Assembly (NCBI GenBank): GCA_026988125.1
Contig: JALSLU010000083.1
Coordinates: 1 to 52,509 of the forward strand
Length of the DNA: 52,509 nucleotides
Source: Sulfurospirillum sp.
GTDB taxonomy: Bacteria > Campylobacterota > Campylobacteria > Campylobacterales > Sulfurospirillaceae
Direction: 5' to 3'
Shown: positions 1,923 to 45,021 of the stretch, one piece after another
Position numbering within the stretch: the stretch's first letter is position 1
Layout: every line of letters begins with the position of its first letter
Translations under genes and position numbers: made by a program
The notes under the pieces: generated by a model
Databases searched by the model: none
Told to the model about the DNA's origin: nothing
What the model saw: only the letters and a program-made list of their open reading frames with translations

Positions 1923-2465
1923 ATGTTTGATGCAACAACCATACTAGGCTACAAAGCTGACGGAAAAGCAGTAATTGGCGGAGATGGACAGGTTACATTT
2001 GGAAATGCTATCTTAAAAGGCAATGCTACAAAGATTAGAAAACTTCATCATGGGAAGATATTGGCGGGGTTTGCCGGTAGCACTGCTGATGCTTTTAATC
2101 TGTTTGATATGTTTGAAGGGATTTTAGAGCAAAAAAAGGGTGATCTTTTTAAATCGGTTATAGAGTTTTCCAAAGAGTGGCGAAAAGATAAGATGCTAAG
2201 AAGACTAGAGGCTATGATGATAGTTCTAAACACTGAGCATATCTTTATCTTGAGCGGAAATGGAGATGTAGTTGAGCCTGAAGATGGAAAGATTGCAGCA
2301 ATTGGAAGTGGAGGAAACTTTGCAATAAGTGCTGCTAGAGCTTTAGAAAAACATGCCAACCTAGAGCCTGAATTGTTAGTAAAAGAGAGCTTGCAAATTG
2401 CAGGAGAGCTCTGTATTTATACCAATACAAATATAAAAACTTTTGTTTTAGAGGATAAAAAGTAG
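1923..2465 (+). CDS. hslV: ATP-dependent protease peptidase subunit HslV (ClpQ)
   Basis: Threonine peptidase subunit of the HslUV (ClpYQ) protease, forming double hexameric rings capped by HslU. It has 180 residues. It starts [10 protein letters not shown], so the catalytic Thr would be residue 5 after removal of a short propeptide, rather than residue 2 as in E. coli (MTTIV); I recall the same form in Helicobacter. Other family signatures are [31 protein letters not shown] and [16 protein letters not shown]. hslU begins on the next base after its stop, giving the conserved hslV-hslU pair. Confidence 0.97.
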
Positions 2466-3788
2466 ATGAATTTAACACCAAAAGAGATTGTTTCATACTT
2501 AGATGAGTATATCATAGGGCAGCTTGAAGCTAAAAAGGCTATTGCAATTGCTCTTAGAAATAGATACAGAAGATTAAAACTAGATAGCCAAATGGCTGAA
2601 GAAATTATGCCAAAAAATATACTTATGATTGGAAGCACTGGAGTTGGAAAGACTGAGATTGCTAGAAGATTGGCTAAGATGATGGGTTTGCCATTTGTAA
2701 AAGTTGAGGCTAGCAAATATACTGAGGTAGGTTTTGTAGGAAGAGATGTTGAGTCTATGGTAAGAGACTTAGTGATGGCTTCAATAAACCTTGTAAGAAA
2801 TGAGCATAGAGAGAAAAATAAAGAGAAAATCGAGCAAAGAGTTGAGAAGATTATCATTGAAAAACTCCTGCCACCACTTCCAAAAGGTGCTAGTGAGCAG
2901 AAAAAAGAGGACTATGAGAGAAGCTATGCTAGGATGCTTGAGAGGCTTAGAAATGGTGAGCTTGATGAGCTTAGTATAGAGGTTGAGATCAAGAAGGGAG
3001 CTGAGTTATCAGATAGCTCTCTGCCACCTGAGATGCTAAAGGTTCAAGAGTCATTTATGAAGATTCTAAACAGTGGAAAAGATAGCGTAAAAAAGGAGCT
3101 AAAGGTTAAAGAGGCAAAAGAGGCTCTAAAGCACAATGCTAGTGAAGAGCTTTTAGACTTTGAATCAATCAAAATTGAAGCGTTAGAGAGGGCTCAAAAT
3201 GGAGGAATTATCTTTTTGGACGAGATAGACAAAGTAGCAGTAAGCTCAAGCTCTTCTCACAGAAGTGATCCGAGCAAAGAGGGTGTTCAAAGAGATTTGC
3301 TTCCTATAGTAGAAGGAAGTGATGTTAACACAAAGTATGGTATGGTAAAGACTGATCATATGCTTTTTATTGCAGCTGGAGCGTTTCACCTTAGTAAACC
3401 AAGCGATCTGATTCCAGAACTTCAAGGAAGATTCCCTCTAAGGGTTGAGTTAGAGTCTCTAACTGAAGAGGTTCTATATAAAATCTTAACCCAAGCAAAA
3501 AATTCACTCCTTCGTCAATACAAAGAGCTTTTAAAGGTTGAGAATGTTGAGCTAGAATTTGAAGATGAAGCGATAAAAGCTATAGCAAAGATTTCACAAA
3601 TGACAAATGAAAAAACTGAAGATATAGGGGCTAGAAGACTGCATACTGTTATAGAGAAAGTCATAGAAGATATAAGCTTTAGTGCAGATGAGCATGCCGG
3701 AGAAAAGATAGTCATTACAAAAGATTTGGTTCACCAAAAACTTGACACCATAGTAGAAGATGAAGATAGCAGTAGGTACATACTCTAA
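2466..3788 (+). CDS. hslU: HslU (ClpY) AAA+ unfoldase of the HslUV protease
   Basis: The ATPase partner of HslV unfolds and threads substrates into it. It has 440 residues, the normal size. It opens with the family sequence LTPKEIVSYLDEYIIGQ; Walker A GSTGVGKT lies near residues 56-63 and Walker B IIFLDEIDK near residue 250. The VGRDVESMVRDL and GARRLHTVIEKV (sensor-2) motifs are present. A helical I-domain lies between about 110 and 230. The C-terminus ends SSRYIL, the tail that docks into HslV. Its stop overlaps the era start (TAATG). Confidence 0.98.
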   Translation: MNLTPKEIVSYLDEYIIGQLEAKKAIAIALRNRYRRLKLDSQMAEEIMPKNILMIGSTGVGKTEIARRLAKMMGLPFVKVEASKYTEVGFVGRDVESMVRDLVMASINLVRNEHREKNKEKIEQRVEKIIIEKLLPPLPKGASEQKKEDYERSYARMLERLRNGELDELSIEVEIKKGAELSDSSLPPEMLKVQESFMKILNSGKDSVKKELKVKEAKEALKHNASEELLDFESIKIEALERAQNGGIIFLDEIDKVAVSSSSSHRSDPSKEGVQRDLLPIVEGSDVNTKYGMVKTDHMLFIAAGAFHLSKPSDLIPELQGRFPLRVELESLTEEVLYKILTQAKNSLLRQYKELLKVENVELEFEDEAIKAIAKISQMTNEKTEDIGARRLHTVIEKVIEDISFSADEHAGEKIVITKDLVHQKLDTIVEDEDSSRYIL

Positions 3789-4693
3789 TGGATAACAAAA
3801 CTACAAACATTGAGACAAAAGCGGGTTTTGTCTCTGTTATTGGGCGACCAAATGCAGGAAAAAGTTCGCTCCTAAATTGGCTTGTTGGCGAGAAAATCGC
3901 TATGGTTTCTCACAAAGCCAATGCTACAAGAAAACGCTCAAACATTATAGTTATGCATAAAAATGCTCAAATAATCTTCATAGATACCCCTGGACTTCAC
4001 GAAAAAGAGAGGCTTTTAAATAAATTTATGATGGATGAGGCTCTAAAGGCTATGGGGGATTGTGATTTGATTCTATTTTTAGCTCCAATTACTGATAGTC
4101 TAAAAGATTATGAAGCCTTTTTAGAAAAAAATAAAAAAAACACCCCTCACATACTCCTTTTGACAAAAATGGACAATGCTAACAAAAAAGAGATATTTAA
4201 AAAGATAGAAGCCTATTCTAAGTATCAAGATAGATTCAAAGCTCTTATACCTGTATCTATAAAGAAGGGAACTTCAAGAGAGTATCTGCTTGATCAAATT
4301 GTAAAAGAGTTACCAAATCATCCCTATCTTTACGATACAGAGATTTTAACAACCGACACAGTAAGAGACCTGTATAAAGAGTACATAAGAGAGGCAATTT
4401 TTAGCAATACCAGTGAAGAGATTCCATACTTTGCCGATGTTATAATCGATAAAGTAGAAGAAGATGAAGAGATAGATAACATATATGCTACCATCATAGT
4501 AGATAAAAAGAGTCAAAAAGGGATAGTCATTGGAAAAGATGGTAAAACTCTTCAAAGAATTGGACATGAAGCTAGAAAAAACATAGAAAGACTAAGTGGA
4601 AAGAGAGTTTTTTTAAAACTTTTTGTAGTTGTCAAGCAAGGGTGGAGTCAAGATAAGGATTTTTTGAAGAAAATTGGGTATGTATTAGAATAA
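3788..4693 (+). CDS. era: GTPase Era (16S rRNA-binding)
   Basis: An Era-family GTPase needed for 30S subunit maturation. It has 301 residues. The GTPase motifs are G1 GRPNAGKSS near residue 19, G3 DTPG near residue 60 and G4 TKMD (NKxD in most homologues, so the first Asn is replaced here). The C-terminal KH RNA-binding domain shows IVIGKDGKTLQRIG. The ATG overlaps the hslU stop by one base. It is the last gene before a 67-bp gap and the secretion cluster. Confidence 0.97.
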   Translation: MDNKTTNIETKAGFVSVIGRPNAGKSSLLNWLVGEKIAMVSHKANATRKRSNIIVMHKNAQIIFIDTPGLHEKERLLNKFMMDEALKAMGDCDLILFLAPITDSLKDYEAFLEKNKKNTPHILLLTKMDNANKKEIFKKIEAYSKYQDRFKALIPVSIKKGTSREYLLDQIVKELPNHPYLYDTEILTTDTVRDLYKEYIREAIFSNTSEEIPYFADVIIDKVEEDEEIDNIYATIIVDKKSQKGIVIGKDGKTLQRIGHEARKNIERLSGKRVFLKLFVVVKQGWSQDKDFLKKIGYVLE

Positions 4694-4760: not shown

Positions 4761-6275
4761 ATGGTAAAAATCGATAAAAAAAATTATCATGAGATTATCT
4801 CAATAGATCCTGTTAGTTTAAAAGCTTATTTATACTTTAAAAATGAAATAAAGCCAATAAATTTAGATAAAATTAAAAGAAATTCTTTTTTTGCATCCTA
4901 TATACAGAGTAAAAATATAATTAGTTCTACTATTGAAATTAGCAGAAATATACCGGATGAAGATTTACAAGACGCTATCGAGATAAAAGTTTATGATGAG
5001 CTGGGTTTGGATAGCGCCGTAGAATATAACATAACATACTCTGAAATTGAAACTAATAATACTAAAAACAAAACCTTTAATGTATTTGTAATTGACTCAA
5101 ATATATTAACTTCTCAGTTTGATAAAGTAATCAAGAAAACAAAATACATCGACTATATAACCACCGCACCATTTCTAATTCAATCACTCTATAAAAAAAG
5201 ATTAATTGAGTCTGATTCGGTTGATTGTTTTGTATATTTTCAAAAAAATGATGCTTTTTTAGCAATTTATAGAATGGGAGAGTATCTATACTCTAAATCT
5301 CTTCACTATTCATTAAGTGAATTAAATGAAAAATTTTGTGAATTGAATGGAGAGAGAATTGATGAAGATGAGTTTTTAAAACTACTAACGACTGAAGGCT
5401 TAAAAACAACTAATTTAGCTTACCAATCCTCTTTGATGAAACTTTTTGGTGAATTGTTTTTGTATATAAATGATGTTATTTTGTTTGCTAAACGATCGCA
5501 TGAAATTGAAAAGATAGATAAAATCTTTATTGGTTCAGAAGTTGGTATTTTAATTGGAGTTGATGAATATGCAAAAAGTTATCTAGGTTTGGAATCTTTT
5601 GAATTTAATTTCTCCATAGCTATAAATTCAAATGAGTGGTATATTGATCAAATTCACATATTAACAATACTAAGTGCGCAAATTTATCTTGAAGATGATA
5701 ATGAAAAATTTAATTTTTCTAAGTTCAAAAGACCTCCCCCGCTAAATAAGAGACCTTCTGGTAAACTTTTAGGCGTTATTGCTGCAAGTTTGGTTTTATC
5801 TTTAGCTTTTCCCGCATATCAATATGGTTTTTCTTTATTTTTAAATATTGAAAGCAAAAAAGCAAAAACAGAGTACAAAATCTTGAATAGTGAAGCAAAT
5901 AGAATTAGAAAAGAGATTAGTACACTAAAAAATGAGAGAGCTAAAGTAGCAAAAATTATAGAACAAGAGTCTAAAAAACTTGAATTTAGAAAAAAACTAT
6001 TAACGCAAATGTATGAGAAAAAGATTAATTATCCAATGAAAGCTAAAAATATTACTAAAATTATAAAAATAATTAATAAATATGATTCAAAAATTTCATC
6101 TATTGAGTATGAAAATAGGATTTTGAAGTTTTATATCCAAAATAGTGATGATAAAAAGATTACAGAACTAATAAAAGAATTAACAAAACTTCAAAACTAT
6201 AAGGTTAGTACTGATAAAATAGAAAAGGGTTTTGACAAAGAGTTGTATTTAAGTACTATTATGGTAAGGATTTAA
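4761..6275 (+). CDS. PilM/PilN-like (GspL/MshI-like) assembly protein
   Basis: First gene of the secretion cluster, 504 residues. Residues about 1-320 are soluble and look like the actin-like cytoplasmic module of PilM/GspL, including an IEISRNIPDEDLQDAIEIKV stretch resembling the PilM region. One membrane helix follows at about 335-357 (LLGVIAASLVLSLAFPAYQY), then a charged coiled coil (about 360-405) and a small C-terminal alpha/beta domain like PilN/GspL. It therefore appears to combine PilM and PilN roles in one chain, linking the cytoplasmic ATPase to the inner-membrane platform. Sequence similarity to named families is weak; the assignment rests on architecture and position just ahead of PilO/PilP/secretin-like genes. 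Confidence 0.7.
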   Translation: MVKIDKKNYHEIISIDPVSLKAYLYFKNEIKPINLDKIKRNSFFASYIQSKNIISSTIEISRNIPDEDLQDAIEIKVYDELGLDSAVEYNITYSEIETNNTKNKTFNVFVIDSNILTSQFDKVIKKTKYIDYITTAPFLIQSLYKKRLIESDSVDCFVYFQKNDAFLAIYRMGEYLYSKSLHYSLSELNEKFCELNGERIDEDEFLKLLTTEGLKTTNLAYQSSLMKLFGELFLYINDVILFAKRSHEIEKIDKIFIGSEVGILIGVDEYAKSYLGLESFEFNFSIAINSNEWYIDQIHILTILSAQIYLEDDNEKFNFSKFKRPPPLNKRPSGKLLGVIAASLVLSLAFPAYQYGFSLFLNIESKKAKTEYKILNSEANRIRKEISTLKNERAKVAKIIEQESKKLEFRKKLLTQMYEKKINYPMKAKNITKIIKIINKYDSKISSIEYENRILKFYIQNSDDKKITELIKELTKLQNYKVSTDKIEKGFDKELYLSTIMVRI

Positions 6276-6278
6276 CTT

Positions 6279-6923
6279 ATGAATAGAGTTAATTTACTAA
6301 GTAGACTTGATAATTATTTAAAAGATAAAAAAGATAGTGAAATTTCTCTGATATTTTTTATGATTTTTGCAATAGTTGCGTTTTTTGTCTATATGTATAT
6401 TTTTCCATTTGCTGAGAAAAACTTAAAAAAAGCCCAAAAAGAGTATAAGAGTATTGAAGCTAAGCTTATTCAAGAGAAAACATTTTTAAACTCTGTGAGT
6501 AAAAATGGAGATAGAAACTATATTTTAAAAAAAATTAAAACTGATTTAGACAAGGATAAGAGTAAACTCAAACAAATAACTTTTGAAAACTCATATGTAG
6601 ATAAGAAGTTAAAAGATCTCTCTTATGTACTTTTTAATGATAAAAATTGGGCAAAATTTTTAGATTCAATTACCCTTTTAGCTAAGCATTACAATATTGA
6701 TTTAAAGCTTATAGAAAACCAGTTTTTAGAACCAAACTTACAACAAATCAAAGAAGTTTTAACTTTAAAAGTGATTTTTTCTGGAAACTTCAAGAGTATA
6801 TTAAAATTTATAAATTCTTTAGAAGAGAGTAAATTGGTTGTTGATATTAAAAAAATTAACTTAAATAGTGACTCTATAATTAATGGTGAATTGGATATTG
6901 CTGTTTGGGGGATGAAATATTGA
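6279..6923 (+). CDS. PilO/MshJ-like inner-membrane protein
   Basis: A 214-residue bitopic protein. A short cytoplasmic N-terminus is followed by one helix at about 22-43 (EISLIFFMIFAIVAFFVYMYIF), a periplasmic coiled coil (about 45-110) and a small alpha/beta domain (about 115-214). This is the PilO/GspM layout. It starts 3 bp after the PilM/N-like gene and its end overlaps the PilP-like gene. In related systems PilN, PilO and PilP form the periplasmic alignment complex linking platform and secretin. Assignment is by architecture and order rather than a diagnostic motif. Confidence 0.65.
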   Translation: MNRVNLLSRLDNYLKDKKDSEISLIFFMIFAIVAFFVYMYIFPFAEKNLKKAQKEYKSIEAKLIQEKTFLNSVSKNGDRNYILKKIKTDLDKDKSKLKQITFENSYVDKKLKDLSYVLFNDKNWAKFLDSITLLAKHYNIDLKLIENQFLEPNLQQIKEVLTLKVIFSGNFKSILKFINSLEESKLVVDIKKINLNSDSIINGELDIAVWGMKY

Positions 6924-7345
6924 TAAAATATGTTTTTTTTATGCTATTAGTAGCTTTAAGCTATTTATTTTCGAGTGAAAGTTTTTCAGAGAGTATTGAA
7001 ATTTATGATAATTTTTTTAAAAAAATTGGTCAAGAAAGAGTAGGCATAGAAGAAACTAAGATAGATAGCTTGAAAGATCCTTTTATATTGAAACAAAAAA
7101 AAGAAATAGATACTGAAAATAATAATACAAAATCAACAACAAAGGAAAAAGTGTATAATTTAAAAGCCATTATTAACAAAAGAGTTAAAATCAATAATAA
7201 TTGGCTTACAGTTGGTGACAGTCTTGATGATTTTAAGATTATTGGTGTAAAAAGCAGGAGTGTTATTATTTCAAATGGATATAATAAAAAAGAGATTTTT
7301 TTAAGGGAAAAAGATGCAAAAAAAATTAAATTTTTTACTAAATAA
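6920..7345 (+). CDS. PilP/MshK-like periplasmic protein
   Basis: About 141 residues. An N-terminal hydrophobic segment (KYVFFMLLVALSYLF) serves as anchor or signal, followed by a polar low-complexity linker and a C-terminal compact beta domain (LKAIINKRVKINNNWLTVGD...VKSRSVIISN...EIFLRE), like the HR/PilP domain that contacts secretin N-domains. The track begins at TTG 6905, but TTG at 6920 overlaps the preceding stop (TTGA) and has a GGGGG tract 8 nt upstream, so I prefer it. By position it may correspond to CtsR of Campylobacter; that link is inferred. Confidence 0.6.
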   Translation: MIKYVFFMLLVALSYLFSSESFSESIEIYDNFFKKIGQERVGIEETKIDSLKDPFILKQKKEIDTENNNTKSTTKEKVYNLKAIINKRVKINNNWLTVGDSLDDFKIIGVKSRSVIISNGYNKKEIFLREKDAKKIKFFTK

Positions 7346-8792
7346 ATATAAAATACTCGTTTTAATAGTTAGTTTATGTTTTGTTCCATCTTATCTGAGT
7401 GCGACTACAAATGGAGTATGTGATTATAAAGTATTTAATATAAAATCTACAGAGGCTATTACAAATATTGAGCTTTTAAATCAGTTGGCAGATAGCTGTA
7501 ACTTTAGTATAATTGTTAAAGATAATGTTGCCGCTAAGATAATTAAAAAGGAGCTGTATAGTATTAATATAAAAGATATGTTTTTAGATGAGATTTTTGA
7601 GCTTTTAATTTCAGATAATGATCTGTTTTATGAATATAATAAAAATTATTTAAAAATTTCTGCTTTAAAAACTGAAACATTTCAAGTAGATTATATTACT
7701 TCAATCAGGCAGGGAACTGCAAATATTGATGCTTCTGTCGATATAAAAATTACTGAGGGTGATACAGGTAGTGCAAATACAGGTAATGGAGACAATGTAA
7801 TAACTTCTAATGATACATTTGACTTTTGGGGTACAGTCAAGAGTGAACTAGTTTCAATAATGAATACGGGTGAGGAAGAATATATAGCAAAAGAGCCTAT
7901 TGTAAATCAGAATGCTGGATTAGTAACTGTAACTGGTACTAGAAGTCAATTAAAAAGAGTAAAAGAGTATATAGATAAACTACAAGAATCTCTTCATAAA
8001 CAGGTTCTTATAGATGTTAGTATATTGTCTGTAGATTTAGAAAATAGTTCAAATAGAGGTATTGATTGGGATAGATTTGATTTATCATTGAAAAGTACAA
8101 CTACAATAGACGATACAAAAAATATTGCAAGTTCCATATCTTCTACTTCAAATAGTATTGTAAATATAGTAAATAATGCAACATTCACTATGCAATCCCT
8201 AATAGATTTTTTAGATAAAAATGGTGACACTAGAGTGGTCTCTAGTCCGAAAGTTTTAGCTATGAATAATCAGCCTGCTATAATTACTGTTGGAGATAAT
8301 ATAAACTATAGAATTGCTCAAGAAACAAATAATAATGATGCAAATACTCAAACTGTTACTTACAACAATTACTCGATGTTTATAGGCATATTACTCAATA
8401 TTACTCCAGAAATAACAAAAGAGAATGATATAATTTTAAGAATAAATCCTTCAATTAGTAGTTTAAAGTTTGCAGAAGATCAAGCAAGACAGCTAAATAG
8501 AGAGATAGCTCCAGATACTAAAGAGAGAAAAATTTCAACAGTTGTAAAAGTAAAAAATGGAAATACAATTATTTTAGGTGGACTAATTTCAAGATCAAAT
8601 ACTATTAATAATCAAAATGTACCTCTTTTGGGAGATATACCGCTACTTGGAAAAGCCTTTTCATACAAGGGTAAAAATACAGGTACAACGGAGCTTATTT
8701 TTGTAATCACTCCTAGGATAATTGGCTCAAAAGACAATACTAAGATTACCTTAAAAGACTTGGGTTTTTCTAAGAAGATTTATGAACAGTAG
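7314..8792 (+). CDS. Type II/IV secretin (GspD/PilQ/MshL-like; CtsD-like)
   Basis: Outer-membrane secretin forming the gated channel, 492 residues. The N-terminal signal is hydrophobic (ILVLIVSLCFVPSYLSA). A short N-domain (about 40-120) is followed by a Ser/Thr/Asn/Gly-rich stretch and then the secretin beta-domain (about 205-485). Diagnostic motifs include RVVSSPKVLAMNNQPA, NGNTIILGGLI, VPLLGDIPLLGKAF and TELIFVITPRII. It has fewer N-domains than classic GspD, matching PilQ/MshL-type proteins. The start ATG 7314 lies inside the end of the previous gene. This is the most secure anchor, with the ATPase at 11005, for calling this a secretion or DNA-uptake cluster. Confidence 0.93.
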   Translation: MQKKLNFLLNKYKILVLIVSLCFVPSYLSATTNGVCDYKVFNIKSTEAITNIELLNQLADSCNFSIIVKDNVAAKIIKKELYSINIKDMFLDEIFELLISDNDLFYEYNKNYLKISALKTETFQVDYITSIRQGTANIDASVDIKITEGDTGSANTGNGDNVITSNDTFDFWGTVKSELVSIMNTGEEEYIAKEPIVNQNAGLVTVTGTRSQLKRVKEYIDKLQESLHKQVLIDVSILSVDLENSSNRGIDWDRFDLSLKSTTTIDDTKNIASSISSTSNSIVNIVNNATFTMQSLIDFLDKNGDTRVVSSPKVLAMNNQPAIITVGDNINYRIAQETNNNDANTQTVTYNNYSMFIGILLNITPEITKENDIILRINPSISSLKFAEDQARQLNREIAPDTKERKISTVVKVKNGNTIILGGLISRSNTINNQNVPLLGDIPLLGKAFSYKGKNTGTTELIFVITPRIIGSKDNTKITLKDLGFSKKIYEQ

Positions 8793-9591
8793 TAGATTTA
8801 GTGATTTAAAAGATATTTTTTTAGATACTGGTGTGTTCGATTATGTTAATTTAGACAAATCGTCTCAAGCTTATGAAAAGATTGCGAGTGCCATAGATAA
8901 GCCTTTAAAACTCATACTCCTTTTTGGTAAACCAGGGGTTGGAAAAACATTTTTATTGCAAAAGGTTTATAATGATTTTTATAAAAAAAAGAGTGTAGTT
9001 CTATTTTTAAGACCTTTTTTTAATGAAAGAGATTTTTTAGTATCTCTTTATGAGGAAATTTTTGAAGAGAAGTCTCCAGACTTTTCAAATTATAATGAGT
9101 TTTTGTCCATATCATTAAAAAAATTATCTAATGATCAATCTATTACAGTATTTTTGGATGAGGCTCAGTTATATCCAAAAGACCTTGTGGAAAGAATTAG
9201 ACTCTTAGCTGATTCTAGAAAATTTAAATTTCTTTTTACTGTTCACAAAACGGAAGAAGAAGATATTTTGGCAAAAGATTATTTTAAAACTAGAATTTGG
9301 GAAACAATAGAGTTAAAAAACTCATCACTAAATGAGATTAAAATATATATAGAAAAAAAACTACTTTTTCACAATAAATTCGAGTCTTTAAGTTTATTCT
9401 CCAATAGAAGCTTTCATCTAATTATGAAGTTGACTAATGGTAATTTACGGACTATAAATAAACTAATGTATAAAACTTTTGAAATTTTAGAATATTATGA
9501 TAAGTATAAACCGTCCACAATAGGCGCTAAAGGTTTGAAACCAAAATTTATAGAGATGGCTGCAATTGATTTAGGAATTATAAATGATTAG
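8782..9591 (+). CDS. ExeA/MshM-like P-loop ATPase (CtsP-like)
   Basis: A 269-residue AAA ATPase of the ExeA/MshM type. Walker A is GKPGVGKTF near residue 50, Walker B is VFLDEAQ near residue 130, and a helical lid follows (NGNLRTINKLMYKTFEIL). Unlike ExeA it has no C-terminal transmembrane segment or peptidoglycan-binding domain, so it is cytoplasmic and ATPase-only. It overlaps the secretin end by 11 bp. In C. jejuni a nucleotide-binding protein (CtsP) next to the secretin is needed for natural transformation; orthology is inferred from order and fold. Confidence 0.8.
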   Translation: MNSSRFSDLKDIFLDTGVFDYVNLDKSSQAYEKIASAIDKPLKLILLFGKPGVGKTFLLQKVYNDFYKKKSVVLFLRPFFNERDFLVSLYEEIFEEKSPDFSNYNEFLSISLKKLSNDQSITVFLDEAQLYPKDLVERIRLLADSRKFKFLFTVHKTEEEDILAKDYFKTRIWETIELKNSSLNEIKIYIEKKLLFHNKFESLSLFSNRSFHLIMKLTNGNLRTINKLMYKTFEILEYYDKYKPSTIGAKGLKPKFIEMAAIDLGIIND

Positions 9592-10459
9592 CGCAGAAGA
9601 TATTGTTGAACTTGAAAAAAAGTGGCTTAGATATAAAATAAAAACGGGCTTTAAGTTCTATATTTTTTTTATAATTTTTATACTTGTTATTACTTCTTTA
9701 ATATACTATATGTTTATAAAAGATAATGATGCAATAAAAGTAGATAACTCAAATGAATCAAACAAAACAGAAAAAATGAAATTTCTCAAAAAATTAAATT
9801 TTCAAAATAACTCAAAAACTAAAAAAATTAAACAAAATGCTTTTGATGTAAATATAAGTAAAATTGATTCAAATAAGACTAAAAATGACATAACCTATGA
9901 CATTGAACAATATATTATGTATAATAATTCTTTAAAAAAAAACAAAGCTATATTAAAACCGAAACAAGAGGAGCCGTTTAGTTTTAAAATTGAACCTACA
10001 CCACAAAAAGCTGAACAATTTTTTAACTCTAGAGAATTAATACTACATAAACCATATAGTAATGAAGTTTCTACAGAAAATAAACTAGTACTTCCACTTA
10101 AAAATAATCAAAATAAAATTCAAAATAAAAACTTAGTTATTGGAACTACTAAAATAAATACAATTGAATACCTTAAAAATAAATTTTATAAAACTTCAAA
10201 TATATCTTTTGCTTTGAGAATAACGAAGGAGTACTACTACAAAAAAGAGTATAAAAAATCACTAAAATGGGCTTTGATAGCGAATGACTTAGACTCCTCA
10301 AATGAAGATACTTGGTACTGGTTTGCAAAATCAAAAGTCAAACTGAATGAAAAAGAGAACGCTATAAAAGCCTTAAAAGCTTATTTGGCACAAAAAGAAT
10401 CAGTCAAACTAAAAGCACTACTTACTAAAATTCAACATGGAGATAGTAATGATTTGTAA
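9584..10459 (+). CDS. Bitopic TPR-like membrane protein (MshN-like; CtsX position)
   Basis: 291 residues. A cytoplasmic N-terminus is followed by a membrane helix at about 26-46 (YIFFIIFILVITSLIYYMF), a long Lys/Asn/Ser-rich linker (about 48-190) and a C-terminal TPR-like repeat pair (YYYKKEYKKSLKWALIANDL, WYWFAKSKVKLNEKENAIKAL). MSHA systems have a TPR protein (MshN) in the same position after MshM, and Campylobacter has CtsX between CtsP and CtsE; neither has a recognisable motif to match beyond this layout. The coding is markedly A/T-rich, with long A runs in the linker. It is probably a periplasmic scaffold. Confidence 0.6.
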   Translation: MISAEDIVELEKKWLRYKIKTGFKFYIFFIIFILVITSLIYYMFIKDNDAIKVDNSNESNKTEKMKFLKKLNFQNNSKTKKIKQNAFDVNISKIDSNKTKNDITYDIEQYIMYNNSLKKNKAILKPKQEEPFSFKIEPTPQKAEQFFNSRELILHKPYSNEVSTENKLVLPLKNNQNKIQNKNLVIGTTKINTIEYLKNKFYKTSNISFALRITKEYYYKKEYKKSLKWALIANDLDSSNEDTWYWFAKSKVKLNEKENAIKALKAYLAQKESVKLKALLTKIQHGDSNDL

Positions 10460-11000
10460 AAAAATTTTAATTTTAATTATATTTGTGTCTGCATTACAAA
10501 GTTCCACCAAAGATGATATCATAGAGCTATATTATCAAAAAAAATATGCTTTAGCGTGCAAAAAAGCTGGTGAATTATACAGCAAGTACAGTAGTGATGA
10601 GGATTTTTTGAGTTTATATGCTGATGCATGTATACAGACTGATATGATAAATAGAACCATACTCCCTATAATAAAACTTCACAAAACTCCAAAATCAAGA
10701 GAAAATGCAGTCTATTTTGCAACAATTCTTTATCAAAAAAAGCTTCTATATTACGCTTTAGTTGATGATGTAGATATCTCTTATATTAACTTACCAAAAA
10801 CAAAGTATATATTGTCTATTATTTTTGATAAATTTATAAATGGAAATTATGACTATAAGGATGGTGCTTATTGGTTTAATGATGATATCGATGAAAATAT
10901 TAGGTACAAATTGTCAGTAGAGACACATCAAAAAGTTAAAAAACTATTTTTGAGAACTTATAAAAGTGATAAAATGATAAAAGTTAGAACATATTGGTAA
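10449..11000 (+). CDS. Exported protein of unknown function in the secretion cluster
   Basis: I do not recognise this protein. From ATG 10449 it is 183 residues, with a cleavable-looking signal peptide (KKILILIIFVSALQSSTK) and a mostly helical mature part containing Tyr-rich segments (YYQKKYALACKKAGELYSKY...). The first 100 residues look like degenerate TPR or Sel1-type helices. The track start at 10437 lacks a ribosome site, whereas ATG 10449 has GGAGA 5 nt upstream, so I use 10449. It overlaps the end of the TPR-like gene and sits 4 bp before the GspE-type ATPase, implying a periplasmic accessory role in the same machine. Confidence 0.55.
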   Translation: MICKKILILIIFVSALQSSTKDDIIELYYQKKYALACKKAGELYSKYSSDEDFLSLYADACIQTDMINRTILPIIKLHKTPKSRENAVYFATILYQKKLLYYALVDDVDISYINLPKTKYILSIIFDKFINGNYDYKDGAYWFNDDIDENIRYKLSVETHQKVKKLFLRTYKSDKMIKVRTYW

Positions 11001-11004
11001 AGTC

Positions 11005-12750
11005 ATGAAAGAAATAAAAAATATTTTAAACTATTTTGTTGAAAATAGGATCATAGATGAAGATAGTGCTAAAAAAATTTTTTCTCATTTAGAAAATACT
11101 AAAACTTCATTGGGTGAACTTTTAGTATCAGAAGGTTTTTTCACAAAAGAGGATTTACTTCTTTTAAGTATAGAATTCCTTAAAAAAGGATACTTAACTT
11201 TAGAAGAGATAAACAACTATCTATCGATAAGTACTGAAGAATTTTTGCAAGAGTTAGCTAAAAATTTGAAATTGGAGTATGTTGATCTTGATTCTGTAGA
11301 TATAGATTACGGTATGCTTTCAAAATTACCTTTTGAAAAATTAAAAAAATTTGGCGCTTTGCCAATAAAGCAAGATGAAATAAATATCTATATTGCTCTT
11401 GTAAACCCTATGGATTTGAATGCTCAAGAGGGAATACAAAGGATTTTTCCAAGAAAACTTGTTAAGTATGTCATAGCTGAACCATTACTGATCGAAAAAT
11501 ACCTGAATAAAGCAGATATGACTGAAAGCATAAAGGGTTTAATTGGTGATATTAGAAAAGAGTTAACATCTAGTGCTGCTGAAAATCCTCAAGAATTATC
11601 TAGTATATTAAAATTAATAGAAATCATCTTAAAAACTGCAATTTTAGCAGGAGCTAGCGATATTCATATTGAGCCAACAGAGAACAACTGTATTATAAGA
11701 GCTAGAATTGATGGTATGCTTAGTGAAACATTTATATTTGATAAAGATATTTATCCTCCTCTGGCTTCTAGAATGAAATTGTTATCCAATATGGATATTG
11801 CAGAAAAAAGAAAACCTCAAGATGGAAGGTTTTCTGCTACTATACTATCAAAGGAGTATGACTTTAGAATTTCAACACTTCCTGTACTAAATGGTGAGTC
11901 TATTGTTATAAGAATTTTAGATAAATCAAAAGTTATGATAAAATTAGAAGAACTTGGCATGCATGAAAAAAATTTTGGAAAGTTTAATAAAGCGATGCAT
12001 GCTCCATATGGAATCATTTTTGTAACTGGACCAACAGGAAGTGGGAAAACAACCACTCTATATGCTGCACTAAATGCTATTAAAAGTGTGCAAACAAAGA
12101 TCATTACAGTTGAAGATCCTGTTGAGTATCAACTAAATTTAACTCAACAAGTTCAAGTAAATTTAAAAGCTGGTTTAACATTTGCTTCTGCACTAAAATC
12201 TATACTTAGACAAGATCCAGATATAATTATGATTGGTGAGGTTAGAGATAAAGAAACCCTCAAAATTGCAGTTCAAGCTGCCCTTACTGGACACTTAGTC
12301 TTTTCAACACTTCATACAAATGATTCGGTAAGTGCAATTACTAGGGTTATGGATATGGGAATTGAACCGTATTTACTCAGTGGTTCATTGGTGGCAATTG
12401 AAGCTCAAAGATTAGTTAGAAAATTATGTTCCCATTGTAAAAAAAAGATTACATTGCCATCTGCTACTTTAAAAAGAATTGAGGAGTACCTGCCAAGTAA
12501 CTATCAATTTTACAAGCATGTAGGTTGTGAAAAGTGTGCTCAGACTGGATTTAAAGGAAGAGAAATGTTATCTGAAATTTTACTTGTTAGTGAGAATTTA
12601 TCTAGCATGATAGCAGCAGGAGAGAGTAAAAAAAATCTTCTAACACAAGCAAAAGCTGAAGGTTTTACAGATATGTTTAGTGATGGAGTCATTAGAGCTG
12701 CCAATGGAATTACAACACTAGATGAAATTATGAGGGTGGCAAAATCATGA
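11005..12750 (+). CDS. GspE/PilB/MshE-type assembly ATPase (CtsE-like)
   Basis: Cytoplasmic hexameric ATPase that powers pilus or pseudopilus assembly, 581 residues. The N-terminal part (about 1-170) resembles MshEN/GspE-N domains that bind the platform and, in some homologues, c-di-GMP. The motor has Walker A GPTGSGKTT (about 342-350), an Asp box, Walker B DPDIIMIGEVRD and the His box LVFSTLHTND. A four-cysteine zinc motif (CSHC...CEKC) lies at about 475-511, typical of GspE/PilB rather than PilT. It is followed directly by the platform protein with a 4-bp overlap. Confidence 0.94.
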   Translation: MKEIKNILNYFVENRIIDEDSAKKIFSHLENTKTSLGELLVSEGFFTKEDLLLLSIEFLKKGYLTLEEINNYLSISTEEFLQELAKNLKLEYVDLDSVDIDYGMLSKLPFEKLKKFGALPIKQDEINIYIALVNPMDLNAQEGIQRIFPRKLVKYVIAEPLLIEKYLNKADMTESIKGLIGDIRKELTSSAAENPQELSSILKLIEIILKTAILAGASDIHIEPTENNCIIRARIDGMLSETFIFDKDIYPPLASRMKLLSNMDIAEKRKPQDGRFSATILSKEYDFRISTLPVLNGESIVIRILDKSKVMIKLEELGMHEKNFGKFNKAMHAPYGIIFVTGPTGSGKTTTLYAALNAIKSVQTKIITVEDPVEYQLNLTQQVQVNLKAGLTFASALKSILRQDPDIIMIGEVRDKETLKIAVQAALTGHLVFSTLHTNDSVSAITRVMDMGIEPYLLSGSLVAIEAQRLVRKLCSHCKKKITLPSATLKRIEEYLPSNYQFYKHVGCEKCAQTGFKGREMLSEILLVSENLSSMIAAGESKKNLLTQAKAEGFTDMFSDGVIRAANGITTLDEIMRVAKS

Positions 12751-13988
12751 AATATTTTGAAGTATCGTCACTATTTAAAGGTAAAAAGATTATTAAAACA
12801 ATAAAAGCACCTAGCAAAAATGATGCGCTGGCAATGGCTAAATCAAAATCGGCAGGTATAGTTTTAAGTGTAAAAGAGACTTCAGCACCAATAGAGGATC
12901 AATTTAAAAATTTTAAAGAAACTATTTTAGGGACAATTAATAAAAAAAATATAAAAATGAAAAATTTGATTGCTGCTATTAGACAATTGGCGGTTATGAC
13001 AAATGCTGGAATATCAATTCATGATAGCATCAGAGAGGTTAAAAACGCTACAGTTGATTCAACATTAAAGAGTATTTTTGAGCAGATAGATGATGATTTG
13101 AACTCTGGTTTAAGCTTAACTGAATCTATGATGAATTTTAGATATGAATTGGGAGATGTTACTATAGCCATGGTTGAACTTGGTGAAAGTACTGGTAATA
13201 TGGCTGAATCATTAGAAAAACTTGGTGAAATATTAGAAGAGATTGAAGAAAATAGACAAAAATTTAAAAAAGCTTTGAGGTATCCTATTACTGTTGTTGT
13301 TGCTATAGGTATAGCATTTACAATTTTAATGGTCTATGTTGTACCAAAATTTAGAGATATTTTTGCTAAATTAAAAGCAGATTTACCTCTACCTACAAAA
13401 ATTTTAATGGCAATGGAATACGCTATAAACAACTATGGTTTATACATTCTCTTATGTTTATTTGCAACTATTGCAATCATTAAATATCTTCTTAAAACAA
13501 ATGAAGAGTTTAAAAATAGTTTTGATAAAAATATTTTAAAGGTGTATCTCGTGGGGAAGATCATTTTTTATGCAACACTTAGTAGATTCACACTTATTTT
13601 TACAGAGCTAATAAGAGCTGGAATTCCGATATCTGATGCATTAGATACATCTATTCTTACTATAGACAATACGCACCTAAAAAACAAACTTTCTTCTGTT
13701 AAAGTCTCAGTAAGTAGAGGTGTTTCATTAACTGAAGCGTTTAGAGAAACTGGACTATTTGAAGGTATGCTTATACAGATGATTCATGCAGGTGAGCAAA
13801 GTGGTACTTTGGATAAAATGCTAGAAAAAGTTACAAATTATTTTAAATCTAAATTTAATGATATTATAGACAATATCGCTAGCTATATTGAGCCAATTTT
13901 ACTAGCTTTTATTGCAGGAATGGTACTCCTTATGGCACTAGGAATCTTTATGCCGATGTGGGATATGGCTCAAGCTGTTAAAAACTAA
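12747..13988 (+). CDS. GspF/PilC/MshG-type inner-membrane platform (CtsF-like)
   Basis: Polytopic platform protein, 413 residues, with the duplicated T2SSF domain. The first copy includes LIAAIRQLAVMTNAGISI and a later copy LSRFTLIFTELIRAGIPISDAL. Membrane helices lie at about 178-200 (YPITVVVAIGIAFTILMVYV), 225-250 and 383-405 (LLAFIAGMVLLMALGIFMPM). Both copies carry the glycine-rich GEQSGTLD/GESTGNMAESL motif. The gene ends convergently with flgH; stop codons overlap within CTAA, leaving no room for a terminator. It is the last gene of the cluster. Confidence 0.93.
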   Translation: MKYFEVSSLFKGKKIIKTIKAPSKNDALAMAKSKSAGIVLSVKETSAPIEDQFKNFKETILGTINKKNIKMKNLIAAIRQLAVMTNAGISIHDSIREVKNATVDSTLKSIFEQIDDDLNSGLSLTESMMNFRYELGDVTIAMVELGESTGNMAESLEKLGEILEEIEENRQKFKKALRYPITVVVAIGIAFTILMVYVVPKFRDIFAKLKADLPLPTKILMAMEYAINNYGLYILLCLFATIAIIKYLLKTNEEFKNSFDKNILKVYLVGKIIFYATLSRFTLIFTELIRAGIPISDALDTSILTIDNTHLKNKLSSVKVSVSRGVSLTEAFRETGLFEGMLIQMIHAGEQSGTLDKMLEKVTNYFKSKFNDIIDNIASYIEPILLAFIAGMVLLMALGIFMPMWDMAQAVKN

Positions 13989-37517: not shown

Positions 37518-38075
37518 TTATTTTGAAAGTGCTTCTAGTGCATACTTTTTACCAAGAGAGTAGGCAAGTTTATTTGCTTCATGAACTTTAGGAGGAACCT
37601 TTGAAAGCATAGTCTCTATAAGTATCTCTTCATCTATTGCATTCATGATTGTATTTGCTATTGCTAGGGCAACAACTGATTGAGTAATAACATTACCAAC
37701 CTCTTCTTTTGCAATCTTTATAATAGGAATCTCAATAATTCTCCATTTTTTTCTATCTTCATCAGTTGGTTTAACCAAGTAAGGATCAATTACTATCGTT
37801 CCACCCTCACTAACACCATCTTTAAATAGATCATAACTCTTTTGTGCAACTGATAGCATAAAATCGATTTCACCATCATTTGCATATGGATAAAATATCT
37901 CTTCATCATCCAATGTTATATCAACAACTGTTGGTCCACCTCTAACTTGTGAAGTATAAGTTGCCGTTTTTAGTCCATACCCACCAAGCTTAATCTTAGC
38001 TGCAGCAAAAATTTCACCTGCAAGAAGAACACCTTGTCCGCCAACACCAGTAAATCTCATTAATGTTCTAGCCAT
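37518..38075 (-). CDS. oorC: 2-oxoglutarate:acceptor oxidoreductase, gamma subunit
   Basis: Gamma subunit of the four-part OGOR, 185 residues. Family features are TGVGGQGVLLAGEIFAAA at the N-terminus, YTSQVRGGPTVVDITL and the C-terminal IETMLSKVPPKVHEANKLAYSLG. With the alpha, beta and delta subunits it interconverts 2-oxoglutarate and succinyl-CoA plus CO2 using ferredoxin or flavodoxin; in autotrophs it runs as a carboxylase in the reductive TCA cycle. It is the last gene of the operon, directly followed by a terminator. Confidence 0.95.
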   Translation of the reverse strand: MARTLMRFTGVGGQGVLLAGEIFAAAKIKLGGYGLKTATYTSQVRGGPTVVDITLDDEEIFYPYANDGEIDFMLSVAQKSYDLFKDGVSEGGTIVIDPYLVKPTDEDRKKWRIIEIPIIKIAKEEVGNVITQSVVALAIANTIMNAIDEEILIETMLSKVPPKVHEANKLAYSLGKKYALEALSK

Positions 38076-38086
38076 GATGTATCTCC

Positions 38087-38944
38087 TTATATCTTTTTCT
38101 TAAACTCATCTTGAGTAATCTTTTTTCTCTTACCTTGGTGAGCATCGATAACATCTTGGTACATATCGCAATACTCTCTAGCACTCTCATCCTGCTTTAA
38201 AATTCCAGTTGGAAATTTATTAAGTTTCTCTTCATCTGATAATTTCTCATACTTTGTTTTAGGTATGGTCATCTGATCAATCCAATCTAAATTTTCCATA
38301 GCATTTGCCATTTGATTTTTTCTTCCTAAATTTACATGACAATTGGACATTATATCGAAAAATGAAAACCCTTTATGTTTGAAACCATTTATAAAAAGTT
38401 TTTCAATCTTTTTAGGATCAAGCACCGTTTCTCTACCTACAAAGCTTGCACCAGATGCAATCGCTAGCTTGCAAGCATCAAATGTTGGATCAATATTTCC
38501 AACTTTCTGAGAAACTGTCCACATACCTTGAGGAGTCGTAGGAGATGTTTGAGAGTTGGTAAGACCATAAATAAAGTTATTTATAACAATAAAATTTATA
38601 TCTATATTTCTTCTAGCACCATGAATCGTATGATTACCACCAATTGCCAAAGCATCACCATCACCAGCAACACAAATCACATGCTTATCTGGATTTGCCA
38701 TCTTGATTCCAGTTGCATAAGCTACAGTTCTTCCATGGGTTGTATGAACAGTATTGAAATCAACATATGATGAAGTTCTACCACTACATCCTATTCCAGA
38801 AACTATACATACATCATCTTTACTCCAACCCATTTTATCAATTGCTCTTATCAGTGCTTTTAAAATTACACCGTCACCACAACCCCAACACCAAAGCGTT
38901 GGCATTTTTTCTAATCTTAAATATTTGTCATAATTGAAAGCCAT
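38087..38944 (-). CDS. oorB: 2-oxoglutarate:acceptor oxidoreductase, beta subunit (TPP-binding)
   Basis: Thiamine-diphosphate subunit of OGOR, 285 residues. It has the cysteine-containing entry CWGCGDGVILKAL, IGCSGRTSSYV, the TPP-binding GDGDALAIGGNHTIHGARRN and the NNFIYGLTNSQTSPTTPQG motif. The Cys residues near the N-terminus and at about 196 (NCHVN) may bind the 4Fe-4S cluster found in this subunit family. It overlaps oorA by one base and lies between oorA and oorC. The set DABC is complete. Confidence 0.96.
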   Translation of the reverse strand: MAFNYDKYLRLEKMPTLWCWGCGDGVILKALIRAIDKMGWSKDDVCIVSGIGCSGRTSSYVDFNTVHTTHGRTVAYATGIKMANPDKHVICVAGDGDALAIGGNHTIHGARRNIDINFIVINNFIYGLTNSQTSPTTPQGMWTVSQKVGNIDPTFDACKLAIASGASFVGRETVLDPKKIEKLFINGFKHKGFSFFDIMSNCHVNLGRKNQMANAMENLDWIDQMTIPKTKYEKLSDEEKLNKFPTGILKQDESAREYCDMYQDVIDAHQGKRKKITQDEFKKKI

Positions 38945-40095
38945 TAGAACACCTCCTTAACTTTCTCTACAATCTCAAATGGAGATATAGGTCTTCCATT
39001 AACTTTGTAGAGACCCTCTAAATCCAATCTGCCAGAAACTCTCTCTACTTCTTCAGTGTATTGTCTGATATTAAGCTCAACACAAAGAACATTTTTAACC
39101 ATATCTGTGAAATGTCTAATTCTCTTTGCAGGACTTGGCCAAAGTGTAATTGGTCTAAAAAGTCCAGCTTTAACTCCATCTTTTCTTAGGTGTCTTATAG
39201 CCTCTTTCGCAGCTAGTGAAACAGAACCATAAGCAATAATTAGAACTTCACCCTCTTCTCCATTAAAATCATCAAGCATAAACTCTTCATTATACTCAAT
39301 TTCTTCAGCATAATTCATAACCTTGTCTTCAAGTCTCTGAATCAGTTTTCTACAAGTTTCTATCTCCTCAGTTGGAAAACCTTTAGCATCATGGTGAAGA
39401 CCAGTAAAGTGATACCTATATCCTTTAAACATTGGATTTAGTACTGCTGGTTCATCCTCACCTACCCCATAGGGTCTATACTCTTCTGGATTTCCATCAA
39501 AAGTTTTTCTAGGTACTACTCCCTTTTCAACTTCCTCTTGTGTTGGAATTATTGCTTTTCCATGCATATGACCTAAGGTTTCATCAGTTAAAACTATAAC
39601 TGGTTGCATAAATCTATCTGCTATATTAAATGCTCTTACAACCTCAGTATAACATTCAGCTAAATTTCCTGCACAAAGAGTTATTGATCTATAATCACCA
39701 TGACTTGGATTTCTAGCTTGCCTTATATCTCCTTGAGATACACGAGTTGGAAGACCAGTACTTGGACCACCTCTCATAACATTAACCAATACCATTGGAA
39801 CTTCAGCCATTTGAGCTAAACCCAAATTTTCAGCCTTTAGGGAAACTCCTGGACCGCTTGTAGCCGTTAAGGCTCTAACACCGCTCATAGCAGCTCCAAT
39901 TGTTGCACAAATACCAGCTATTTCGTCTTCCATTTGAATTGCATATCCACCTCTTTGTGGGAGTAAATCAGAAATTGTATGCATAACCTCACTTGAAGGT
40001 GTTATAGGATAACCCCCAAAAAATTTACATCCAGCATCAACGGCCGCCAATGCAGCTAAATCATTTCCAGTTGATATGACCTCTCTTGTTTTCAT
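38944..40095 (-). CDS. oorA: 2-oxoglutarate:acceptor oxidoreductase, alpha subunit
   Basis: Pyruvate-ferredoxin-oxidoreductase-type alpha subunit, 383 residues. It begins REVISTGNDLAALAAVDAGCKFFGGYPITPSSEVM, followed by QMEDEIAGICATIGAAMSGVRALTATSGPG, the pattern of the PFOR domain I. The region after residue 280 (VLIIAYGSVSLAAKEAI, LRKDGVKAGLFRPITLWP) is the second domain. It makes the 2-oxoacid and CoA site with oorB. Start is ATG 40095, 12 bp after oorD. Confidence 0.96.
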   Translation of the reverse strand: MKTREVISTGNDLAALAAVDAGCKFFGGYPITPSSEVMHTISDLLPQRGGYAIQMEDEIAGICATIGAAMSGVRALTATSGPGVSLKAENLGLAQMAEVPMVLVNVMRGGPSTGLPTRVSQGDIRQARNPSHGDYRSITLCAGNLAECYTEVVRAFNIADRFMQPVIVLTDETLGHMHGKAIIPTQEEVEKGVVPRKTFDGNPEEYRPYGVGEDEPAVLNPMFKGYRYHFTGLHHDAKGFPTEEIETCRKLIQRLEDKVMNYAEEIEYNEEFMLDDFNGEEGEVLIIAYGSVSLAAKEAIRHLRKDGVKAGLFRPITLWPSPAKRIRHFTDMVKNVLCVELNIRQYTEEVERVSGRLDLEGLYKVNGRPISPFEIVEKVKEVF

Positions 40096-40107
40096 TAATT
40101 TTTCTCC

Positions 40108-40428
40108 TTAAACACCATCTGGTAATCTATAATTATTTTTTTTGATCAATTCAGCTCTCTTTTTTGCTTCCTCTTTTATCTTTGAAAATTTGTATTCTTT
40201 TCTATCAGCTACAAAAATTGCAAAATCTGGACAGTGCAACTCACAATCATAGCATCCAATACAATCTTGAGGAGCAATTATTGTTATCATTGCACCAAGA
40301 GTTGAACTTGGCTCAGGTCTCATAGCAAGAACACCTGCAGGACAAACAGAGACACAAACATCACATGCTTTACATCTCTCTTCATCAACCCACACAGCTG
40401 TATCTTTTGGGGCTGTTACTACACTCAT
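40108..40428 (-). CDS. oorD: 2-oxoglutarate:acceptor oxidoreductase, delta subunit (2x4Fe-4S)
   Basis: A 106-residue ferredoxin-like subunit. It has two [4Fe-4S] motifs: CKACDVCVSVCPAG near residue 19 and CIGCYDCELHCPD near residue 57. It shuttles electrons between OGOR and the external ferredoxin or flavodoxin. It is the first gene of oorDABC, with AAGGAG upstream of ATG 40428 and a TATAAT-type box at 40457-40462. All cluster cysteines are intact. Confidence 0.95.
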   Translation of the reverse strand: MSVVTAPKDTAVWVDEERCKACDVCVSVCPAGVLAMRPEPSSTLGAMITIIAPQDCIGCYDCELHCPDFAIFVADRKEYKFSKIKEEAKKRAELIKKNNYRLPDGV

Positions 40429-40456
40429 ACTTTTTCTCCTTAATTCTTAAATTTAA

Positions 40457-40462
40457 ATTATA
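40457..40462 (-). promoter_or_regulatory. -10 box for the oorDABC operon
   Basis: On the minus strand the 78-bp sucD-oorD gap reads TTGGTATTATAATTT. The TATAAT at 40457-40462 is a perfect -10, about 30 bp before oorD. Thus oorDABC can be transcribed separately from sucCD, although cotranscription is not excluded. Confidence 0.5.
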
Positions 40463-40506
40463 ATACCAAGTTTATATTAAAATTAACTCTTTTAGAAGTT
40501 AAAAAT

Positions 40507-41379
40507 CTATTTTTTCAAAACTTCTGCTACTTTTTTACCTATCTCAGCAGGACTTACAACTACATGAACGCCAGCTTTTTCCAAAGCTTCCATCTTTTCC
40601 TTTGCAGTTCCAGCGCTTCCACTCACTATTGCTCCAGCATGTCCCATTCTTTTTCCTTTTGGAGCAGTCTGTCCAGCTATAAAAGCTACTACAGGTTTTG
40701 TTATATTCTTTTTGATAAATTCTGCTGCTTGAATCTCTAAATCACCTCCAATTTCACCTATCATTACGATAGCTTCAGTTTCTGGATCCTCTTCAAACAT
40801 AGGAAGAAGTTGTTTATAGCTAAGACCTATTATAGGGTCGCCTCCAATCCCAACTGCAGTTGTGATTCCAAAACCCTCATTACACACTTGATTTGCTCCT
40901 TCGTAGGTCAATGTACCAGACTTGCTAATAAGTCCTACATTTCCCTTTTTAAATACCATTCCGGGCATAATTCCTATCTTGCATTCCTGCGCAGTAATAA
41001 TTCCAGGGCAGTTAGGCCCTATTGTTTTCATACCATTTTTTATTGCATACATTTTTGCAAACATCATATCTTTTACTGGAGCTCCCTCAGTAATTATGAC
41101 CGCTAACTCAATACCTGCATCAGCTGCTTCCATTATTGCATCAGCTACAAATGCAGGAGGAACAAAGATCATACTCACTGTTGCTCCAGTTTGCAAAACT
41201 GCATCTTTTACAGTGTTAAAAACTGGTTTCCCAAGATGGGTTTGTCCACCTTTATTTGGAGTAACTCCACCTACTATTTTAGTGCCATAGGCTAAGCATT
41301 GCTCAGCGTGAAAAGTACCCTCTTTTCCGGTGAAACCCTGAACTATAACTTTTGTATCTTTATTAACTAAAATGCTCAT
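40507..41379 (-). CDS. sucD: Succinyl-CoA synthetase, alpha subunit
   Basis: Alpha subunit of ADP- or GDP-forming succinyl-CoA synthetase, 290 residues. Motifs are [17 protein letters not shown], the phospho-His region [13 protein letters not shown] near residue 246, and [20 protein letters not shown] in CoA-binding context. It catalyses succinyl-CoA formation in either TCA direction. Start overlaps sucC by one base. Terminates 78 bp before oorD. Confidence 0.97.
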
Positions 41380-42551: not shown

Positions 42552-42594
42552 ATAATCTCCTATAAATTTTTATTTTAAATTTTACTATATGCGC

Positions 42595-43155
42595 TTATTT
42601 TACTTCGTATTGTTCTCTGCCTATTTTATATAAATCCTGCCCATACGAATCATTTATAACTGTCAGAGGAAAATCAACAACCTCTAGTTTTCTTATTGCC
42701 TCAGGACCTAACTCAGGATAAGCTATAACCTCTGCACTCTTAATCTGTCTAGCTAGTAGTGCTCCTGCACCTCCTGTAGCTCCAAAATATATAGCTTTAC
42801 ACTCCTTACAAGCATCAATCACCTCTTGATTCCTTTTTCCTTTTCCAATCATACCTTTTAAACCCTTTTGTCTTATCAAGATAGGTGAGTAAGAATCCAT
42901 CCTATACGATGTAGTTGGTCCTGCGCTTCCAATTGGGTCACCTGGTTTTGGTGGTGTTGGTCCAACAAAGTATATTACTGACCCTTCAATCTCAAAAGGT
43001 AATTCTTTACCATCGTTAATTAAATCAACTAATTTTTTATGAGCTGCGTCACGAGCAGTATATATTGTACCACTAAGATAGACTATATCACCAGATTTTA
43101 ACTGCTCAACATCACTATCACTAAGAGGTGTTGTTAAATAATAGGTTTTACTCAT
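42595..43155 (-). CDS. Class I fumarate hydratase, beta subunit
   Basis: The C-terminal-type subunit of the two-subunit class I (Fe-S) fumarase/tartrate dehydratase, 186 residues. Features are LKSGDIVYLSGTIYTARDAAHKKL, YFVGPTPPKPGDPIGSAGPTTSYRMDSY and GATGGAGALLARQIKSA. It lies 9 bp downstream of the alpha subunit. It belongs to FumA/TtdB-like enzymes, unlike the class II FumC that I recall in C. jejuni. Fumarase over tartrate dehydratase is chosen from the TCA neighbours. Confidence 0.9.
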   Translation of the reverse strand: MSKTYYLTTPLSDSDVEQLKSGDIVYLSGTIYTARDAAHKKLVDLINDGKELPFEIEGSVIYFVGPTPPKPGDPIGSAGPTTSYRMDSYSPILIRQKGLKGMIGKGKRNQEVIDACKECKAIYFGATGGAGALLARQIKSAEVIAYPELGPEAIRKLEVVDFPLTVINDSYGQDLYKIGREQYEVK

Positions 43156-43164
43156 ATCTCTCTC

Positions 43165-44016: not shown

Positions 44017-44020
44017 ATCT

Positions 44021-44971: not shown

Positions 44972-44993
44972 ACAGACTCCTTTGTATTGTTAA

Positions 44994-45016: not shown

Positions 45017-45021
45017 AAAAA

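Follow-up and report, generated by a model that had tools for sequence, protein, structure and literature searches.

The MSHA pilus of Vibrio is encoded by genes in the order mshI-J-K-L-M-N-E-G. The MSH class of filament machines has been reported in Epsilonproteobacteria, all MSH loci lack a prepilin peptidase gene, and in the MSH model the major pilin gene, mshA, may be a loner (Denise et al. 2019, PMC6668835). In Vibrio, the assembly ATPase MshE binds c-di-GMP via two 24-residue motifs (PMC5013675). A second described system, Cts, takes up DNA in Campylobacter jejuni. This bacterium cannot be transformed without CtsD/PilQ and ComEC, and loss of Cj0683, the protein that precedes priA, costs >3.7 log10 of transformation; Cj0683 interacts with CtsE in yeast two-hybrid assays and was described in 2023 as unique to Campylobacter (PMC10046745). 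In a literature search that did not cover the two founding Cts papers, we found no paper joining the Cts and MSH names, none equating CtsR, CtsP and CtsX with MshK, MshM and MshN, and none giving homologues of Cj0683 outside Campylobacter.

Here we analyse nine genes, called I, J, K, L, M, N, X, E and G, at positions 4761-13988 of a Sulfurospirillum contig. The window, that is, the whole stretch of 52,509 nucleotides under analysis, is one entire contig (C83) of a 1.87 Mb assembly (176 contigs, 98.6% complete) from the family Sulfurospirillaceae, phylum Campylobacterota. Our preferred reading, to which we give a probability of about 0.65 from sequence comparison, is that these genes code for the part of a type IV filament machine that spans the envelope, and that this machine descends from MSH systems and most likely serves DNA uptake.

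Composition of the nine-gene operon

The nine ORFs lie on the plus strand throughout and none is interrupted. Successive genes are separated by gaps or overlaps of +3, -19, -32, -11, -8, -23, +4 and -4 bp, and this spacing, between +4 and -32 bp, makes transcription as one unit likely, in line with the sequence-only reading, which took the overlaps between contiguous genes as a hint of one operon. The neighbouring hslV-hslU-era genes (1923..4693, plus strand) are outside the machine; as conserved neighbours, they show where the operon stood ancestrally. By its secretin, the nearest named relative is Sulfurospirillum arcachonense DSM 9755 (62% identity; locus L127, the same contig as G165). Elsewhere in the window, positions 37518-47193 (minus strand) hold a (reductive) TCA-type cluster with 2-oxoacid:ferredoxin oxidoreductase subunits, succinyl-CoA ligase and monomeric isocitrate dehydrogenase, and positions 48284-50845 encode an 853-aa protein of the YhdP family; at its 5' end, this gene overlaps an ORF on the other strand (47389-48405).

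Gene I (4761..6275) has an MshI/GspL-like layout, with a PilM-type actin-fold cytoplasmic domain, a single membrane helix near residue 334 and a PilN-type periplasmic part. Its match to PilM in the sequence libraries is below threshold. However, its AlphaFold2 model (pLDDT 86.7) matches a solved PilM structure in Foldseek (E 9.5e-14), and its family profile gives a weak C-terminal match to PilN (E 0.008, residues 327-473); the protein is thus predicted to be a PilM-PilN fusion with the architecture of GspL. Gene J (6279..6923) would encode a PilO/MshJ-like inner-membrane protein, on a match to Pfam PilO that is under the cut-off (E 0.0027) and on its position; it has one membrane helix and is homologous to gene J of a second operon of this genome, located on contig C37 (see below). 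Gene K (6905..7345, from an uncertain TTG start) is putatively a PilP/MshK-like periplasmic protein, judged by position and size.

The secretin is encoded by gene L (7314..8792; Pfam secretin, E 6.2e-47), which is of the MshL type since it scores 262 bits against the NCBIfam MshL equivalog, above the cut-off of 250.2. Gene M (8782..9591) encodes an AAA ATPase of the MshM/ExeA type (AAA_22, E 7e-10) with the Walker A motif GKPGVGKT. Gene N (9584..10459) is MshN-type, with a single N-terminal membrane helix at residues 18-36 and a TPR-like C-terminus that gives weak TPR matches. Gene X (10437..11000, probably starting at 10449) encodes an uncharacterised protein, predicted to be exported to the periplasm, without any sequence match in Pfam, NCBIfam or PDB. 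Its confident model (pLDDT 92.8) shows TPR-like helical hairpins and, after them, a beta domain; in a fold search, the matches were TPR-like but weak, and no E-value reached 0.001. Gene E (11005..12750) encodes the assembly ATPase, of the MshE/GspE type (T2SSE, E 2.7e-132; MshEN, E 2.8e-15), and gene G (12747..13988) the inner-membrane platform, of the MshG/GspF type (T2SSF, E 7.2e-52). The profile search proposed earlier for each ORF has therefore matched the secretin, AAA_22, T2SSE with MshEN, and T2SSF domains firmly.

The operon shares with the Vibrio MSH locus its gene order and a secretin above the MshL equivalog cut-off and, as in MSH loci generally, no prepilin peptidase gene is present in the locus; mshE, mshG, mshL and mshM stand together in the window, MshE, MshG and MshM being assigned by domain and position. 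It differs from the MSHA/MSH pilus in three respects: the pilins are not in the locus, there is an extra gene, X, and the c-di-GMP-binding motif of MshE has been lost.

Conservation and relation to the cts genes of C. jejuni

The secretin is matched in 365 of 397 genomes of the phylum, a count in which weak matches may represent other secretins. Seventeen loci from genomes other than those of the C. jejuni group were compared. All of them have I, J, K, L and E in the same order, while N and G occur in 16, M in 15 and X in 13; X was not detected in several members of Sulfurospirillum proper. Eighty named loci include 49 with a complete I-J-K-L-M-N-E-G set, 26 of them with X too, and several of the others are cut at contig edges. 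The upstream neighbours are equally stable: hslV-hslU-era precedes the operon in 16/16 loci with enough sequence, from eight families, and era is upstream in 53 of the 54 named loci with testable sequence. From this comparison, the locus is old and vertically inherited, not an oddity of one genome. Moreover, the operon is the sole GspE/PilB-type machine in relatives that include G123, G336 and G183. Most operon-bearing genomes examined outside the C. jejuni group carry two copies of PilT.

For comparison with Cts, profiles were built from the 17 loci and the window, leaving C. jejuni-group sequences out, and run on C. jejuni-group loci. They recover each of ctsR, D, P, X, E and F at its own position, with E-values from 8.5e-11 to 1e-180, which gives a one-by-one orthology: ctsR is K, ctsD is L, ctsP is M, ctsX is N, ctsE is E and ctsF is G. 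The individual values are 8.5e-11 to 7.6e-18 for K, 5.5e-170 for L against the CtsD-position protein, 1.2e-22 for M against a 198-aa ATPase at the CtsP position, 2.7e-31 for N against the CtsX-position protein (~198-226 aa) and 3.2e-75 for G against that of CtsF. In the window, the homologues of all six stand in one operon and in the same order. The K-L-M-N-E-G proteins of C. jejuni GP013 measure 103-470-202-195-519-393 aa, and the published lengths are 472 for CtsD, 202 for CtsP, 195 for CtsX and 519 for CtsE (PMC8308473).

In a concatenated tree of the six proteins, cts falls inside the Campylobacter part of the clade (SH-aLRT 100, UFBoot 93), and cts of C. jejuni and C. coli is well separate from the paralogous operon on C37. 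In the tree of the ATPase only, CtsE sits on a long branch, with an attachment among A, B and L075 that is not settled. Taken together, orthology of the operon to Cts, rather than paralogy, is well supported by the sequence data. CtsX is a bitopic protein whose C-terminus is periplasmic, and it is bound by CtsP; the same topology as that of CtsX is predicted for gene N of the window.

The C. jejuni-group loci nevertheless differ from the window operon. They adjoin a gene of ~1185 aa, in place of hslV-hslU-era, and the profiles of I and X find no match at them. A PilM/PilN gene (I) was found in controls but not in four whole C. jejuni-group genomes, and neither PilO (J) nor X is present at the cts locus of C. 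jejuni-group genomes. Each of the four genomes has one GspE/PilB/PilT-type ATPase and no PilT. Since gene I and PilT are gone from these genomes and kept in other operon bearers, the reduction lies in the C. jejuni group, and its cts operon is an orthologous, reduced version of the nine-gene operon. The resemblances to MSHA and to Cts, both noted from the sequence at the outset, are thus both right and describe the same thing. One further match, of the gene J profile to the 101-aa protein at the CtsT position (E 2e-4), was taken as similarity between hydrophobic N-termini and was not used. The cts operon of one C. jejuni-group genome (L067 in G193) has no ctsP-like gene and a short ctsX-like gene; ctsP is said, in published work, to be absent from C. 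lari, which agrees with this locus.

Pilins and other filament machines of the genome

No class III signal peptide was found across the whole window, and N_methyl has no match on this contig against 11 on other contigs. Prepilin peptidase and PilT are likewise missing from the contig. The sequence-only reading had noted these gaps and supposed that the parts are borrowed from elsewhere, and indeed other contigs encode pilins, prepilin peptidase (PilD), two PilT, ComEC and DprA, the latter with an E-value of 2.7e-48 that is under its cut-off. Of the partners suggested for a search of the genome, PilD, ComEC and DprA were therefore recovered, but CtsG and CtsT were not: their globular parts, with the N-terminal helix removed, have no significant match among the assembled pilins of this genome, where one pilin locus probably falls in an assembly gap.

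Genomes with the operon as their single machine (G123, G336 and G183 among others) share a recurring pilin set spread over three loci. The first consists of one or two pilins directly upstream of priA, an arrangement seen in at least 27 genomes, including that of the window, which has two such pilins on contig C32. Without its N-terminal helix, the priA-proximal pilin of C32 still matches the priA-linked pilin of the C. jejuni group (E 1.8e-12), which is Cj0683. No priA-linked pilin was found in five Helicobacter-like genomes that have priA but no secretin, ATPase or pilins, nor in G008, which is Arcobacteraceae-like.

The second locus, flanked by fliW (or proC) on one side and by the gene for the hibernation factor (HPF) on the other, comprises three minor pilins and an exported protein of 1280-1466 aa. 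In the genome of the window, the start of contig C26 matches the last 16 residues of the last pilin of this cluster and continues into the HPF gene, so the cluster probably lies in an assembly gap. The giant exported protein (L111:645-5045 in S. arcachonense, with equivalents in L108, L109 and L110) stands between FliW or ProC and the minor pilins, carries a Calx-beta domain in one case and is a candidate tip adhesin; the corresponding locus of the C. jejuni group (L112) lacks this protein and retains FliW-ProC-CtsT. The third locus is a single pilin of ~220-250 aa that follows a gene for a PMT-like membrane protein and a glutamine-amidotransferase gene. In the window genome this pilin is on C147 and matches its C. 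jejuni-group counterpart outside the helix (1.3e-14). The PMT-like gene always adjoins the single pilin gene (L119:3874-5724, L114:4336-6295), and its product is possibly a pilin glycosyltransferase or a conserved assembly factor.

Besides the window operon, the genome encodes two other distinct filament machines. The C37 operon (L050:7726-16683, minus strand) contains homologues of all nine genes in identical order, with 24-49% identity. In contrast to the window operon, it has pilins attached, upstream (L050:7726-18386 with the pilins), and was seen at such a locus only in some of the Sulfurospirillaceae examined. In relatives, this operon is flanked by pilins at either end, with one pair next to the gene of a UvrD-like helicase; the window genome has the same arrangement at the end of contig C127, which suggests that C127 and C37 probably adjoin. 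The third machine is a canonical type II secretion system (T2SS) split over C2 (L051:2165-9993), C23 (L002) and C13 (L054); its GspD and GspG score above their cut-offs. Sequence common to the ends of C23 and C13 suggests that gspG-H and gspI-J are neighbours.

The two MSH-type machines also differ in their ATPases. In a scan for the c-di-GMP motif that allowed variable spacing, gene E of the window has lost five of the six key residues, leaving one Gly, and all six are kept in only one of 86 orthologues. By contrast, both motifs are intact in the C37 ATPase (where they are spaced by 31) and in three relatives. The NCBIfam motif model NF053729 (cut-off 38) gives 16.5 bits for the window protein against 61 bits for the C37 ATPase. 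The motif, which controls MSHA pili, is a regulatory trait of Vibrio MshE and lies outside the published definition of the MSH family. Its loss in the window ATPase and presence in the C37 ATPase argue that the window machine would not be run as an MSHA attachment pilus.

Likely function and its implications

The sequence-only reading had left DNA uptake, secretion and surface attachment open, and the function now narrows to DNA uptake as the most likely role. This reading draws on the orthology to Cts, the Cj0683-like pilin beside priA, the loss of the c-di-GMP motif and the occurrence of PilD, PilT, ComEC and DprA in the genome, although ComEC and DprA are found widely and carry little weight here. 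In such a machine, PilD would process pilins encoded chiefly beside priA, and ATPase E on platform G would polymerise them. I, J and K (PilM/N-PilO-PilP) would hold the platform in line with L, the secretin. Next to it, ATPase M and N, which is bitopic, may form a sub-complex, and X could be a periplasmic accessory. The fibre would exit through L, bind DNA and be retracted by PilT; ComEC would then bring one strand into the cytoplasm, and DprA would pass it to recombination. The C. jejuni group would have lost I, J, X and PilT while still taking up DNA with the reduced K-L-M-N-E-G machine.

The main alternative is a pilus comparable with MSHA that retracts and serves to attach the cell or to sense surfaces, DNA uptake being secondary or having arisen in Campylobacter only. 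The MSH gene order and the MshL equivalog match speak for it, as do the two PilT copies of most operon-bearing genomes and the locus with FliW, the giant exported protein, three minor pilins and HPF in single-machine relatives. However, gene E has lost the c-di-GMP motif, and the second MSH-type operon keeps the motif and comes with pilins of its own and, in a relative, with an adhesin that has a laminin-G domain. Moreover, the sole defect reported for mutants of the orthologous C. jejuni system is that they no longer take up DNA, biofilm being unchanged (PMC10046745). We regard this alternative as unlikely, but the surface-adhesin-like giant protein at the minor-pilin locus of single-machine relatives suggests attachment too, which counts against a role in uptake alone.

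A type II protein secretion system is highly improbable. The operon shares with the canonical T2SS homologous ATPase, platform and secretin domains, and matches the GspE and GspF models strongly. However, these matches remain under the GspE, GspF and GspD equivalog cut-offs, GspC is absent and there is no local GspG, whereas the canonical T2SS of the same genome has GspC, GspG and a GspK-F order, with 22-46% identity to the window parts; GspC, GspG and the GspD/E/F equivalogs are found on C2 and C23. Least credible of all is the view that the operon merely duplicates the one on C37 and is redundant or in decay. Although each of the nine genes has a C37 paralogue in the same order, all nine frames are intact with their Walker motifs and CxxC pairs present, the locus position is the same in eight families and several relatives have this operon as their sole PilB/GspE-type machine. 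A dedicated pilin operon or a canonical T2SS elsewhere had been named beforehand as a find that speaks against the filament-machine reading. Literally, both occur in this genome, yet the reading stands, because the window operon is anciently placed and is the only GspE/PilB-type machine of G123, G336 and G183.

Returning to DNA uptake, we lean slightly towards a broader proposal, in which the operon and its dispersed pilins would be the complete ancestral competence pilus of Campylobacterota, derived from MSH and freed from c-di-GMP control. The C. jejuni version would be a stripped one, without PilM/N/O, the retraction motor and the giant surface protein, in which retraction by PilT is unneeded.

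The kind of machine and Cts itself were already known; the part-by-part Cts assignments and the pilin partners look new. They provide identities for poorly understood competence proteins, with CtsR being PilP/MshK-like, CtsP MshM-like and CtsX MshN-like, and Cj0683 gains a homologue outside Campylobacter. Two functionally separate MSH-type machines, told apart by c-di-GMP binding, are predicted in some Sulfurospirillaceae. DNA uptake in Campylobacter may be framed as the reductive evolution of a pilus, and a comparison of full with reduced machines makes it directly testable how uptake is powered where PilT and the alignment complex are missing.
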